Shown here one piece after another: positions 285-9,489 of a stretch of 64,000 nt of DNA. Position 1 is the first letter of the stretch. Each line of letters starts with the position of its first letter. Where the stretch lies: the NCBI GenBank assembly GCA_030430025.1, contig JAUIGR010000007.1, forward strand, positions 1 to 64,000, given 5' to 3'. Under the pieces are notes generated by a model that made no database searches, was not told the DNA's origin, and saw nothing but the letters and a program-made list of their open reading frames with translations. This DNA is from Gammaproteobacteria bacterium. Its GTDB lineage: Bacteria; Pseudomonadota; Gammaproteobacteria; Xanthomonadales; Marinicellaceae. The position numbers were made by a program, and so were the translations under genes.

Positions 285-650
285 ATGAATATCTCTGAAT
301 CTGAACTGGTTGTCTTACAAATACTTTGGCAAAGCTCACCTTTGACAATAGGCCAAATCATCGCTCGCATACCTGAATCAAAAGACTGGCATGACAACAC
401 TATCAAGACGCTGACTGGGCGACTATTAAAAAAAGGTCATATCTCAAGACAAAAAGATGGAAGACAATATTTTTATAGCCCAAATACTTCTAAGGAAGAC
501 GTTTTAACTTCGGCCACTAAATCATTCATGCAGAAATTTTTTGATGGCCAAGTCGGACCCCTGATAGCACATTTTGCAGCACATAAGTCTCTACAAAAGT
601 CAGACATAGAGGCTATTGATGAGATCATCAAGGAATTAAAAAATGATTGA
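285..650 (+). CDS. BlaI/MecI/CopY family transcriptional repressor
   Basis: A 121-residue protein of the usual family length. Residues 1-70 form the winged helix: the start ISESELVVLQILW, then TIGQII, the recognition helix region TIKTLTGRLLKKG and the wing GRQYFYSP. The C-terminal third would be the dimerisation helices, which in this family contain the site cut on signalling. It is a cytoplasmic DNA-binding repressor and probably binds the palindrome at 247-256. Its stop overlaps the start of the M56 receptor gene by 8 bases, so the two are translationally coupled. No beta-lactamase gene is adjacent, so the regulated target is unknown. There is no clear Shine-Dalgarno sequence before the ATG. 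Confidence 0.88.
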   Translation: MNISESELVVLQILWQSSPLTIGQIIARIPESKDWHDNTIKTLTGRLLKKGHISRQKDGRQYFYSPNTSKEDVLTSATKSFMQKFFDGQVGPLIAHFAAHKSLQKSDIEAIDEIIKELKND

Positions 651-1812
651 TTGGATTTTAAAAACGGCACTATTAACCTCTGTGGTGTTACTTTTTGTGG
701 CATTGTTCAGGTCTAAAGTCAGAAGATTATTTGGAGCCCATGTTAGTTATATGATGTGGGTTTTAGTCCCTTTGTCTTTGATTTTTTATTCACTGAAAGA
801 AAAAACTGCGGTCATCATTTCATTCAATGGTGTCAATCTTTTGTCTAATCCACAAGCCACTCCAGTTTTTACCTCACCTTATTTTTTTAGTGAATCCCAA
901 ATTGACATGATGCTATGGATTTGGGGTATTGGAATGGCTTTATTCGTGCTTTTTCGCTTTTGTACTTGGGGTTTGTTTAATTACAAGTTGATGACTCAAA
1001 GGCAACTTTATGTGCTTGATGAGCAGCTTGTTAAGCAATTGAAGTGGCGTCAAAAGCTGCCAAAAATTTATCAAACGTCACAGGCCCATTCACCCTTTGT
1101 TACTGGCCTGATCAAGCCCAAAATATACCTTCCTTCAAACTTTGATCAGCTATTTACCACGACCGAAAAGATAATGATTTTAATTCATGAGCTTACCCAC
1201 GTGAAAAGGAAGGACTTGTTCATACAATTATTGGCTGAAGGCATTCGTTCCATATATTGGTTCAATCCCTTGGTTTATTTATTGTGGAATGAATTTACTC
1301 AAGATCAGGAGATGGCTTGTGATCGAACAACCCTCCTAAAATTAGATAAGGGAATAAAGAAACAATATGCCCAGGCGCTCAAAGTAAGCGCGGTTGCTCA
1401 TTTAATCCCCAATACATTGACTTTTTTTAACCATAAATATGAGAGGTATATCATGTTAAATTTTCATAACAAAAACTTAAGCAAGTCAATTAAAGGAACC
1501 TTGCTGATTTTATTTTCAATCGCATTTCTATTCTTCAGTACACAACTTGTATTTGCATGCGCTGATCCTGACGAGCACGGTAACATAATAAGTTACAATT
1601 TTAATGAAGTACCAGCAAAAGAAGTGGTTCAGCTAATTGCTCACATCAACCCTGGAGAGGAAGAGATCACTGATATTCAATTGTTAGATGAAGTGTTGAT
1701 CTCGGCCAAAGCAGAAGAGGTTTATGCTTTTGATTTTTTACAAGAAATCCTAATGACTCATGGCATCAAGTTTGAAAGAAAAGGCCTTGAGTGGAAGTTT
1801 ACTCAATTGTAA
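643..1812 (+). CDS. BlaR1-type M56 membrane metallopeptidase with a C-terminal STN-like domain
   Basis: A 389-residue polytopic membrane protein. Hydrophobic segments lie near residues 3-20, 30-50 and 85-105. The zinc-protease motif HELTH is at residues 182-186, followed by the downstream EMACD motif typical of M56 enzymes, and a further membrane segment lies near 290-307. In BlaR1 and MecR1 the peptidase is activated by an extracellular penicillin-binding domain and leads to cleavage of the cognate repressor. Here that roughly 250-residue sensor is missing. About 80 residues follow the last membrane segment, with a pattern (YNFNEVPAKEVVQLIA, later LQEILMTHGIKFER) resembling the STN domain of secretins and TonB receptors. 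The STN assignment is by eye. The ligand is unknown. Confidence 0.82.
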   Translation: MIDWILKTALLTSVVLLFVALFRSKVRRLFGAHVSYMMWVLVPLSLIFYSLKEKTAVIISFNGVNLLSNPQATPVFTSPYFFSESQIDMMLWIWGIGMALFVLFRFCTWGLFNYKLMTQRQLYVLDEQLVKQLKWRQKLPKIYQTSQAHSPFVTGLIKPKIYLPSNFDQLFTTTEKIMILIHELTHVKRKDLFIQLLAEGIRSIYWFNPLVYLLWNEFTQDQEMACDRTTLLKLDKGIKKQYAQALKVSAVAHLIPNTLTFFNHKYERYIMLNFHNKNLSKSIKGTLLILFSIAFLFFSTQLVFACADPDEHGNIISYNFNEVPAKEVVQLIAHINPGEEEITDIQLLDEVLISAKAEEVYAFDFLQEILMTHGIKFERKGLEWKFTQL

Positions 1813-1966: not shown

Positions 1967-3736
1967 TTACTCGAAGTTATCTTCAAATATCAGGTCGGAT
2001 AATACTTTCTTAGCGACATACATATCCAGGTCGGTAGCATCGGGTTCTGGCGACCAGGGAAAAGATAAAAAGACAGCTTCTGGATTACCCACTGACATTT
2101 CAAGGTAATCACTGAAAAAGTAATTATTACCCCAATAATCAGATTCGACGAATAAACTGGTGGGAGTGACCCGAGATTCATGCCAAGTCATCCCTTTGTC
2201 GCTGGAATAGCTGTAATACATATCAAGATGAGCCTCAAGTGAATCATCAGTTTGATCGCCGTTTCGGGTATCAAGATAAGACACATGAATGCCGCCTTGC
2301 TGATCAATCTCGATCCAAGGTAGGAGCTGATCTGCTTGGATATCCGGTGTGATGATCCATGGTGTGTCCCAAGTTTCACCATTATCGCCCGATCTACTCA
2401 TCCAAACAGCATAGTCAGTACCATCCAGTATTGTGGAGTCTACATAAATAATAAATAAGTCACCATCAGGGTGAACAGCGAGCAACCTTAATGGTACTAA
2501 GCGAAAATAGCCAGGGATTAATTGATCATTAATAAAAAGGTTCAAAGCCGCTGCTGAAAAGGGCGCATCAATAGTGGTAAGTGGCTGATCATTGCAAGAT
2601 TTATACATTACTACTGTGTCAGCAATGTAGAAACATTCACCAAAAAATCGAGGTTGTGGTGTGAATAACTCATTGATATTTAGTAGTGGAAAAAAGCTTT
2701 CACCAAAATCCATAGAACTAAAAGCTCCTTGAGTATTTTCTACCATCACTAAGCTACCATCATCATCAACAGCCATCCAACCTTTATCAAAACTACCGTT
2801 AACGAAGTATGGCCCTTGTTGTGCATCATTTTCCAAGTTTCGTCGATAAACGTAGAAAGTATTATTCTCTGGGCCTAAAAATGTTGTCATACCACCAAAA
2901 TACATCAGCTTGTTGACTGGATCGTAAGCCGTCATTGGGTCAAAATGATGAACGTTTTCAACTTGTGAAAGGGGACTAATAAATTGGTTGGTCCAAGTTT
3001 GGCCACCGTCATTACTGTGCGCGCTTTGTAATTGCCAGCTATTTTCCAAAAAATCTGAATTGTATTCACCCGCATTATCTGTCCATGTAACCACAATATC
3101 TTGCCCATCTTCAGAGACACGCATCGAAGTTTCTCCCGCCTGGATACCAGGATCAGCAATATCCACACGTGTCAAATCAAAAGAGGTTGTTTCATCTGTG
3201 AAGATGTTCGCTTTTAATGCCGGTTGATTGTTAATGTGGTTTTTATAGGTTTGTGGCAGTAGATCGTAATTGGTGCCTTCAGAAAGTTGTCCTGTTCTGA
3301 TTTCAACAAGCACTCTTAACGGGTCGTTAACCGGTATTTGAGCTTGGTCAATCACCGCTAGTGCTTGTTCCCATCTTTTTTGCCTGATATACAAATGGGT
3401 CAACTTTGTTTGTAGTTCCTGAGTATGGCCGATTGAGTCCATGGCTTCAAGCAACAATGATTCAGCTGCCTGGTATTCTTTTAATTTAATCAGCCATTCA
3501 ATTTTACTGAACAACTGCTCACTAGCGACCAGTTCACCAATGTCATCAGAAAAGCAGTCTTGATATTTTTCCAGATGGTTGGTCGATTTGTAAAAATATT
3601 TTTTTGTGGTATCCGTAGGGCAATGGTGTTCAGGACCCATGCTGTTATTATTGACTGTATTGACACGGTTGTGCTGACAACCTGATAGTACTGATATCGT
3701 TAAAAATAATGAAATGAGTTTGTTATAATTTTTCAT
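1967..3736 (-). CDS. Lipoprotein with TPR-like N-terminus and sialidase-type BNR repeats, C-terminal DNFE tag
   Basis: A 589-residue exported protein. The N-terminus has a lipoprotein signal with lipobox LSGC at about residues 17-20. Residues 75-150 are helical, TPR-like repeats. From about residue 180 the protein becomes beta-rich with Asp-box motifs of the S-x-D-x-G-x-T-W kind (SNDGGQTWTN, SRSGDNGETW, SYSSDKGMTW), which points to a sialidase/BNR beta-propeller. The last ten residues are SDLIFEDNFE, nearly the same as the ends of the proteins at 17778-18302 and 40374-41675. No catalytic sialidase arginine triad was assigned, so a binding or structural role is as likely as an enzymatic one. 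It is transcribed alone, diverging from the MFS-PlsC gene. Confidence 0.75.
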   Translation of the reverse strand: MKNYNKLISLFLTISVLSGCQHNRVNTVNNNSMGPEHHCPTDTTKKYFYKSTNHLEKYQDCFSDDIGELVASEQLFSKIEWLIKLKEYQAAESLLLEAMDSIGHTQELQTKLTHLYIRQKRWEQALAVIDQAQIPVNDPLRVLVEIRTGQLSEGTNYDLLPQTYKNHINNQPALKANIFTDETTSFDLTRVDIADPGIQAGETSMRVSEDGQDIVVTWTDNAGEYNSDFLENSWQLQSAHSNDGGQTWTNQFISPLSQVENVHHFDPMTAYDPVNKLMYFGGMTTFLGPENNTFYVYRRNLENDAQQGPYFVNGSFDKGWMAVDDDGSLVMVENTQGAFSSMDFGESFFPLLNINELFTPQPRFFGECFYIADTVVMYKSCNDQPLTTIDAPFSAAALNLFINDQLIPGYFRLVPLRLLAVHPDGDLFIIYVDSTILDGTDYAVWMSRSGDNGETWDTPWIITPDIQADQLLPWIEIDQQGGIHVSYLDTRNGDQTDDSLEAHLDMYYSYSSDKGMTWHESRVTPTSLFVESDYWGNNYFFSDYLEMSVGNPEAVFLSFPWSPEPDATDLDMYVAKKVLSDLIFEDNFE

Positions 3737-7776: not shown

Positions 7777-9489
7777 ATGAAATATACATCAGCTTATGGT
7801 GGTGGGGATTTGGTCAACCTGATTCCTGATGCCGAAAAGAAAAAGGAATACCAGGCGCTTGCTAACACTTTGCCAGATTGGGATTTAACAGCCCGTCAAC
7901 TGTGTGATATCGAGTTGTTGCTGAATGGTGCTTTTTCTCCATTAAAAGGCTTCATGACAGAAGCAGATTATGACTCAGTGTTAACCGAGATGCGGCTGGC
8001 CAGTGGTGTTTTGTGGCCTATACCAGTGACTCTGGATGTTGACCAAGCGACTGCACAAGCAGCTCAAAAAAAAGGCCAGTTGACGCTAAGAGATCCGGAA
8101 GGTGTTGTTTTGGCTATCCTTAATGTCAGTGATGTTTGGCGTCCAGATAAGGCTAAAGAGGCCGAATTGGTTTTTGGAACAAATGATACCAAACATCCAG
8201 CGGTTAATTATTTAATGAATCAAGCCGGTGACTATTATTTGGGAGGAGCGTTATTGGGCCTTCAGTTACCAACGCATTATGATTATCAACATCTCCGTCA
8301 TACCCCACAAGAAGTGCGAAGAAAATTTGCTAAGTTAGGTTGGAATAAAGTGGTGGCTTTCCAAACCAGGAATCCGATGCATAGAGCGCATCAAGAACTG
8401 TCGTTCCGTGCGGCTCAAAGGGTTGAAGCTAATTTATTGATTCACCCGGTTGTTGGAATGACTAAACCGGGTGACATAGATCACTTTACTCGTGTTCGTT
8501 GTTATGAGCAACTGATGGATCGTTTTCCTGAGCGAACTACTGCTTTGTCTCTCTTACCCTTGGCGATGCGCATGGGAGGGCCACGTGAGGCTTTATGGCA
8601 TGCCATCATCCGTAAAAATTATGGTTGTACACATTTGATTGTTGGTCGAGATCATGCGGGCCCTGGAGATGATTCAGATGGAAATCCATTCTATGATCCA
8701 TATGGTGCTCAGTCTTTGATGAAAAAATATCAGGATGAGCTAGGAATTGAAATGGTTGAATTTGAGATGATGGTCTATTCTCAAGATAAGGCGCAGTATA
8801 TTCCAATCTCTGAAAAACAAGAAGACGAACATATTTTGAACATCTCTGGTACAGAATTAAGACGTCGGTTGAAACTTGGATTAGAGATTCCTGAATGGTT
8901 TTCCTACCCTGAAGTAGTGGCTGAATTACGTAAAAGTCACCCACCCAGACATAAACAAGGATTCACCGTATTTTTTACTGGTCTATCAGGTTCAGGTAAG
9001 TCAACAATTGCTAATGCATTGCGTATTAAGCTGATGGAGATGATTAATCGTCCAGTGACATTGTTGGACGGTGATGTGGTTCGTAAACACCTTTCCAGTG
9101 AATTAGGTTTTTCTAAAGACCATCGTAATATCAATGTTTTGCGAATCGGTTATGTGGCCAGTGAAATTACTAAAAATGGCGGTGTTGCTATCTGTGCGCC
9201 GATTGCCCCCTATCAAAATACCCGAGAAGAGGTGCGACAAATGATTGAACCTTTGGGAGGGTTTTTGGAAATTCATGTATCAACGCCATTAGAAGAATGT
9301 GAAAAAAGGGACCGCAAAGGCTTGTATGATAAAGCCAGAAAAGGTCTCATTAAAGAATTTACTGGCATTTCTGACCCTTATGAGGCGCCTCAAAAACCAG
9401 AACTGGCTATCGATACCCAGGATTATTTACCGGATGAAGCGACACAACAAATTATTCTCAAGCTAGAAGCCATGGGTTTGATTTCTTAA
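7777..9489 (+). CDS. sat-cysC: Bifunctional sulfate adenylyltransferase / adenylylsulfate kinase
   Basis: A 570-residue cytoplasmic enzyme. Residues 1-390 are monomeric-type ATP sulfurylase with the nucleotide-binding motif QTRNPMHRAH and GRDHAGPG, which makes adenosine 5'-phosphosulfate from sulfate and ATP. Residues 395-570 are APS kinase with P-loop GLSGSGKS (402-409) and the DGD motif, which phosphorylates APS to PAPS. Both halves look complete. This is the fused Sat form, not the CysDN heterodimer of enteric bacteria. It lies 12 bases after tyrR and 6 bases before the exonuclease gene, so it is co-transcribed with genes of no obvious link to sulfur. No PAPS reductase or sulfotransferase is in the window. 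Confidence 0.94.
   Translation: MKYTSAYGGGDLVNLIPDAEKKKEYQALANTLPDWDLTARQLCDIELLLNGAFSPLKGFMTEADYDSVLTEMRLASGVLWPIPVTLDVDQATAQAAQKKGQLTLRDPEGVVLAILNVSDVWRPDKAKEAELVFGTNDTKHPAVNYLMNQAGDYYLGGALLGLQLPTHYDYQHLRHTPQEVRRKFAKLGWNKVVAFQTRNPMHRAHQELSFRAAQRVEANLLIHPVVGMTKPGDIDHFTRVRCYEQLMDRFPERTTALSLLPLAMRMGGPREALWHAIIRKNYGCTHLIVGRDHAGPGDDSDGNPFYDPYGAQSLMKKYQDELGIEMVEFEMMVYSQDKAQYIPISEKQEDEHILNISGTELRRRLKLGLEIPEWFSYPEVVAELRKSHPPRHKQGFTVFFTGLSGSGKSTIANALRIKLMEMINRPVTLLDGDVVRKHLSSELGFSKDHRNINVLRIGYVASEITKNGGVAICAPIAPYQNTREEVRQMIEPLGGFLEIHVSTPLEECEKRDRKGLYDKARKGLIKEFTGISDPYEAPQKPELAIDTQDYLPDEATQQIILKLEAMGLIS

Follow-up and report, generated by a model that had tools for sequence, protein, structure and literature searches.

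The window, a stretch of 64,000 nucleotides that begins with the first base of its contig (contig 43; the assembly comprises 3.08 Mb in 114 contigs), carries close to its start a two-gene cassette on the forward strand, the strand of all genes and protein features given here for the window unless stated otherwise. A gene for a BlaI-type repressor (285-650, 121 aa) overlaps by 8 bases the gene for an M56 protease with a C-terminal STN domain (643-1812, 389 aa), which we call M56-STN. The family Marinicellaceae is included in the order Lysobacterales (PMC12195097), and we refer to this marine organism as Marinicella-like. Marinicella meishanensis and M. marina were the nearest named relatives among the loci that we named, which are the best 80 of 466 M56 relatives. 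Convergent with the M56 gene, a reverse-strand frame (1967-3736) gave weak Pfam matches, below the cut-off, to TPR and BNR/Asp-box repeats.

The sequence TACA/TGTA is the general core of BlaI operators. Upstream of blaI, a putative operator GACTACAAATGTAAACT (244-260), which was found by pattern match and contains TACAAATGTA at 246-255, lies over the spacer and the -10 element of a promoter-like pair on the forward strand, TTGACA (231-236) and TAAACT (255-260), with an 18-base spacer and recognised by consensus match. An earlier note on this DNA had pointed to an operator overlap and to a BlaI partner of the receptor; both observations held. By eye, the region upstream of blaI in relatives shows TTGACA or TTGACT, an 18-base spacer and the operator form RACTACNNNTGTARNCT over the -10 element. 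The repressor itself matched Penicillinase_R in Pfam (116.6 bits) and S. aureus BlaI (1sd4; phmmer, E 2.6e-18). In S. aureus, BlaR1 is reported to cut BlaI between Asn101 and Phe102 (PMC9834060); the aligned bond in the window protein is His96-Phe97 (570-575), and an equivalent of Phe97 was present in 14 of 14 BlaI proteins checked, the window's included, some of them near-copies of one another. From this alignment we infer that BlaI would be cleaved before Phe97.

BlaR1, which lets staphylococci sense penicillin, is the textbook antibiotic-sensing protease. The core of the window protein places it in peptidase family M56: it matched Peptidase_M56 (PF05569) over residues 6-246 with 171.5 bits (E 3.1e-50; curated cut-off 31), and it contains an HExxH motif and a downstream ExxxD. 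It was the sole match above the family cut-off in its genome, a second match reaching 29.2 bits, and it scored 91.7 bits against the blaR1_generic model (cut-off 400). The zinc motif HELTH, to which the earlier note had correctly pointed, occupies residues 182-186 (1186-1200), and E223xxxD227 (1309-1323) is by alignment the equivalent of E242xxxD in BlaR1, for which the motifs H201ExxH and E242xxxD and the nearly invariant residues Asp210 and Tyr261 have been described (PMC9834060). Alignments A1 (9 proteins) and A4 (10 proteins) showed no variation at H182, E183, H186, E223 and D227, nor at L259 and F261; H182ELTH, E223xxxD227, D191 and Y242 were invariant in ten aligned proteins, window included. 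BlaR1 is reported to cut itself between Ser283 and Phe284 (PMC9834060). The P1' residue Phe284 is aligned with F262 of the window protein, and L259-T-F-F-N-H264 (1417-1434) is a possible autocleavage loop, as predicted from the sequence. BlaR1 cryo-EM structures ranked first for the full-length AF2 model (8exs, Z 19.4, rmsd 3.6 over 243 residues, covering model residues 1-266). This model had a pLDDT of 74.6, with values below 50 at residues 53-81 and in the link after the last transmembrane helix (residues 302-307). That helix, at residues about 283-304 (1489-1554), was assigned from a model helix at 279-304 and from the hydrophobic sequence.

With Pfam, the protein encoded at 643-1812 showed no Transpeptidase (penicillin-binding) domain, which confirmed that the beta-lactam sensor is absent. 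We also looked for a partner gene that would carry the sensor instead. None of the neighbours tested with Pfam, a set outside which window positions 7777-9489 fall, had a penicillin-binding domain, and the genome's four Transpeptidase matches all lay in ORFs of 571-823 aa, with no short stand-alone Transpeptidase protein among them.

The last 75-85 residues of the M56 protein were confidently predicted to form an STN/N0 fold with the order b-a-b-b-a-b-b (residues 314-389; 1582-1809; AF2 domain model, pLDDT 89.5), which rules out an unrelated fold for the tail. This model matched the N0 domains of PilQ (4ar0, Z 9.0) and GspD (3ezj, 8.6) and the STN domain of PupR (6ovk, 8.3), in line with the STN-like tail proposed in the earlier note; neither of the two outcomes that this note had named as refuting its claim was observed. 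Phage baseplate and VgrG-type domains also matched it (8kea, 9.9; 8gra, 8.7), and a Foldseek search with the domain gave E values above 0.001 throughout (best 1.0e-2), with phage baseplate domains appearing beside secretins. Because baseplate and VgrG domains match the model in addition to secretins, the fold alone names no function.

Pfam STN (PF07660) did not match the window protein alone, and searches of Pfam and NCBIfam with the window tail alone gave chance-like matches only (PduV-EutP, RsbU_N, EutP, MurB). A tail profile was built from 12 members: the window tail, eight ortholog tails and three small proteins that stand alone. Two of the 12 reached Pfam STN weakly (best E 9.3e-4). Against the PDB, the seven best sequences found by this profile were all PilQ secretins (3jc8, E 3.8e-5; 9x0w, 9.1e-5; 6ve2, 9.5e-5; 6w6m, 7.8e-4; and three more at E 0.012-0.14), and the next was Cas12a (E 0.18). 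Against the 8020 ORFs of the collected loci, it recovered the PilQ of the window's own genome at E 1e-6 and the M56 protein of L058, which was not in the profile seed, at E 4e-6. Since PilQ comes first for this profile in the PDB and the genome's own PilQ is also recovered, we reject a chance resemblance. By fold and profile, the tail is a member of the STN/secretin N0 superfamily, and PilQ N0 is the nearest relative found for it.

The domain has diverged strongly in sequence: its other copies are 17-53% identical to the window's, with one invariant column in 14 rows, and in the M56 domains of the family other residues stand in place of the PilQ motif PWDQAL. A domain tree, weak because of its 90 columns and long branches, grouped 10 of 11 M56 domains with three solo domains (described below) and that of L055 with PilQ. 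L168, a duplicate of L045, was excluded from this tree and from the PilQ profile comparison; L232, a family member from another genus, was in neither PilQ set of that comparison and is labelled 'other' in the tree. At L055:6901-7128, in a Marinagarivorans MAG, the M56-STN domain keeps the motif as VPWDQAL, and this domain was possibly captured separately.

Over 33 family genomes, the tail profile gave 44 matches. Complete M56-STN proteins were found in 11 of the 33 (open frames of 388-411 residues), 28 matches lay in long frames (398-777) and were taken for PilQ, and the others were three stand-alone proteins (130-134), one remnant (G026, 185) and one weak match in a 625-residue frame. The STN domain was kept in all 11 family M56 proteins with a full-length alignment. 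In two genomes (G010 and G014), blaI and the beginning of the M56 gene lie at a contig end. In an order-wide sample, 301 of 398 genomes had a match with an E value of 1e-15 or lower; among the matches listed, position 387 was reached by the same 11 proteins only and the others mostly stop near position 300, one of them (G563) reaching model position 363 with a tail that is repeat-like by eye and has no STN. In a class-wide sample of 369 genomes, seven matched at E 1e-25 or better, and the tail was covered only by the window's protein. Searching that sample with a profile that included the solo domains gave, among the matches listed, the window protein, open frames that were 396-906 residues long and, in G347, one frame of 102 residues close to the end of a contig.

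STN domains were present in 11 of the 80 named loci, in ten by profile (L046-L054 and L058) and in L055 by eye and weakly by Pfam (19.3 bits; cut-off 28.4); L065 is truncated by its contig end. Outside the family, M56-STN proteins occur in two MAG loci, L055 and L058. The tails of the other proteobacterial M56 proteins, among those listed, were by eye TonB_C-like, ankyrin-like or of other kinds, and up to several hundred residues long. M56 relatives were present in 42 plasmid records, none of which covered 80% of the query. Some M56 proteins of Bacteroidota carry TonB plug domains. In the literature searched (titles and abstract openings), we found no description of an M56-STN protein, and a search pairing BlaR1 with an STN domain found nothing.

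A solo STN gene directly follows the M56-STN gene in three of the 11 complete cases (G004, G015 and G016), with 41-98 bases between the M56 stop codon and its start. Its products of 116-125 aa (L005:2713-3063, L006:2411-2788 and L007:2763-3140) have a start that is signal-peptide-like by eye and two conserved cysteines, and are predicted to be secreted. We did not find the solo gene in the other eight complete cases, window included, and the 33 family genomes held no other short-frame solo copy except the remnant in G026. There (L146:5654-6199), the start of a GFA-like gene is in frame with the last transmembrane helix and the STN domain, and the protease core is gone. In G029, a small ORF that overlaps the end of the M56-STN gene (L054:3487-3849) is STN-like by eye, reached 14% in a profile comparison and had no Pfam match. 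A small secreted STN protein beside the receptor fits a soluble ligand or brake.

The surroundings of the cassette vary. In six genomes, a gene resembling undecaprenyl phosphate translocases (PF04018) lies before blaI on the same strand (L005:216-1070 and the equivalent place in G010, G013, G015, G016 and G017; assigned with Pfam in one and by sequence in the others). The cassette stands beside riboflavin synthase in G007 (Pfam) and, by sequence, in G014, and beside GFA and deaminase-like genes in a second genus. In M. meishanensis, it adjoins TIMP-like and DUF2306 genes; the TIMP-like protein (L004:541-1026, reverse strand; 25.9 bits, cut-off 23.1) is encoded divergently from blaI. No pil or gsp genes were seen next to the cassette.

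The operator sites were searched beyond the window, a mapping that the earlier note had proposed. The pattern RACTACNNNTGTARNCT occurred 16 times in the 33 family genomes, and 13 of these sites were directly upstream of blaI; of the 18 genomes in the genus 10 had such a site, and of 11 in a second genus 3. Because 11 of these 13 blaI promoters had served to write the pattern, their recovery is partly by construction, and the independent finds are those in G013 and G014. The other three sites lie in or at the edge of coding stretches (a pilO-like ORF in G017, a radA-like ORF in G031 and a contig end in G016; the names pilO and radA, and PilP below, are presumptive). A reversed control pattern gave 26 matches in the same 33 genomes, compared with 16 for RACTACNNNTGTARNCT; the three extra sites are therefore fewer than expected by chance, and at this stringency nothing points to a regulon that extends past the cassette. 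With three mismatches allowed, a genome-wide search returned 69 sites versus 292 for the reversed control, so that a wider regulon is not visible at this setting and weaker sites are beyond judgement. Thus, the mapping recovered sites upstream of blaI, and the stringent pattern revealed no target gene beyond the operon in the 33 family genomes. Neither a beta-lactamase nor a PBP2a gene was found in the operon, among the tested neighbours or beside the stringent-pattern sites, degenerate sites being still possible. As judged from these patterns, the blaI-M56 cassette is the only clear operator target.

Altogether, our results indicate that M56-STN probably reports on a cell-envelope protein, not on an antibiotic. 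From sequence, models and analogy, we lean towards a BlaR1-type proteolytic switch in which a periplasmic protein of the STN type, or one that binds N0, would give the input by binding or being released. The M56 catalytic residues, the BlaR1-like model, the STN fold, the PilQ-N0 profile and the conserved P1' Phe of BlaI argue for such a switch, as do the occurrence of complete M56-STN proteins in 11 of 33 family genomes, the solo gene in three of them, the cassette as sole clear operator target, and the FoxA/FoxR and PupB/PupR precedents given below. The N0-type matches found in the genome are PilQ, its sole Pfam STN match, and two more obtained with a second N0 model, which makes secretins, N0-binders or, in three relatives, the solo STN protein the candidate partners rather than an STN-bearing TonB receptor. 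The earlier note had suggested a different signal, perhaps contact with an outer-membrane receptor or an envelope component; the exchange of the sensor stood, and the receptor contact calls for revision, since Pfam STN matches only PilQ in the genome.

For the switch, we infer the topology, the partner, the direction and input of the signal, and the cleavage of BlaI as follows. BlaI would bind the operator at 244-260 and repress its own operon. The M56 protein would be an inner-membrane protein whose zinc site faces the cytoplasm and whose STN domain lies in the periplasm, where an STN-pairing protein would hold or release the receptor. This pairing protein may be the solo STN protein in genomes that encode one, and elsewhere a secretin N0 domain or an N0-binder such as PilP or GspC. 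A shift of the last transmembrane helix would then free the active site from the protein's own loop, and cutting of BlaI before Phe97 would derepress the operon. Against such a contact, the STN domain of PupR alone was reported not to bind its partner and to require a second subdomain, CJM (PMC7186176), for which M56-STN has no room; in eight of the 11 complete cases, moreover, the window among them, no solo gene was found. We also put forward, tentatively, a self-contained cassette in which the secreted STN protein and the STN-protease, both relatives of a secretin N0 domain, sense each other, or envelope secretin assembly, and cut BlaI. If this were true, the BlaR1 chassis would be a general protease relay fitted with envelope-contact sensors.

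A partner among the secretins could also mean that the STN domain mimics the N0 domain of PilQ or GspD and binds the inner-membrane-linked protein that usually docks on it, PilP or GspC, so that its occupancy would report secretin assembly through M56 to BlaI. We regard this as unlikely, even though PilQ came first for the tail profile in the PDB and the genome encodes it along with the two other N0-type matches. N0 of PilQ is reported to bind the C-domain of PilP (PMC3441751), and N0 of GspD the HR domain of GspC (PMC3169554). In hhalign comparisons, the 11 M56-STN domains matched 20 family PilQ N0 domains slightly more strongly (97.8%, E 6.7e-13) than 26 other PilQ N0 domains (97.5%, E 5.1e-12), and mean pairwise scores favoured family PilQ in 11 of 14 domains. 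However, this bias was reversed in the remaining three and may reflect shared composition instead of contact, PWDQAL is replaced, the cassette has no visible pil or gsp neighbour, and the single operator match near pil genes, at the pilO-like ORF, is no more than chance would give.

The C-terminal domain might alternatively be a structural cap that only anchors or stabilises the protease, with the membrane part or the BlaI level governing activity. Its rapid divergence is what such a cap would allow; however, an inert cap is hard to explain because the domain is kept in all 11 full-length family proteins and three genomes also encode it as a protein of its own that is predicted to be secreted, and we consider this reading improbable. 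The least supported form of contact is one with the signalling domain of an outer-membrane TonB receptor, as FecR makes with FecA, which we judge very improbable: the fold does match PupB, PupR, FecA, FoxA and the ferripyoverdine receptor, and signalling in that class is reported to be linked to proteolysis (PMC11637429), but the only protein matched by Pfam STN in this genome, a draft in 114 contigs in which absence is not proven, is PilQ, and the neighbours tested included no TonB receptor.

This case gives a name to the sensor fold in one lineage; the other M56 relatives examined here have different tails, mostly unexplained. The domain is one tied to protein-protein contacts known in secretins and in iron signalling. 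With the sensor fold and a small secreted partner candidate in hand, the input of a non-penicillin M56 receptor is directly testable.

Comparison with known systems places the two halves of the protein differently. The cassette resembles BlaR1/MecR1-BlaI/MecI of S. aureus in that a BlaI-type repressor is adjacent to an M56 protease, which shares HExxH, ExxxD, equivalents of Asp210 and Tyr261, and the modelled structure over residues 1-266; an operator-like site over the promoter and, by sequence, Phe at the BlaI cut site are further likenesses. Unlike these systems, it has an STN domain of about 75-85 residues in place of a class-D-like penicillin sensor, and no beta-lactamase or PBP2a gene was seen in its operon or beside a stringent-pattern site. 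Other proteobacterial M56 proteins share the M56 core, with tails that are not STN. With PilQ, the tail shares the N0/STN fold and a recognisable sequence profile; unlike in PilQ, it is the C-terminal end of a membrane protease, a secretin pore being absent, and the family members have lost PWDQAL.

PupR and FoxR, regulators of the FecR type, are likewise inner-membrane proteins that end in a periplasmic STN domain, with proteolytic control there and predicted here. When no signal is present, the signalling domain of FoxA is reported to bind FoxR at its C-terminal domain and to protect that domain from proteolysis (PMC11637429), and the NTSD of PupB to bind the CCSSD of PupR, which ends in STN, a C-terminal place that was called new in 2020 (PMC7186176). 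In contrast to PupR and FoxR, M56-STN would itself be the protease and would act on the BlaI repressor, and it has neither an anti-sigma domain nor a CJM subdomain; no FecR or anti-sigma family matched the window protein, in which Pfam recognised M56 over residues 6-246. By analogy, our best reading sets M56-STN nearer to the contacts of FoxA with FoxR and of PupB with PupR than to the sensing of antibiotics. By the defining feature of the sensor, it is not a beta-lactam receptor; its core makes it a BlaR1-like relay, and its sensor makes it a new variant.
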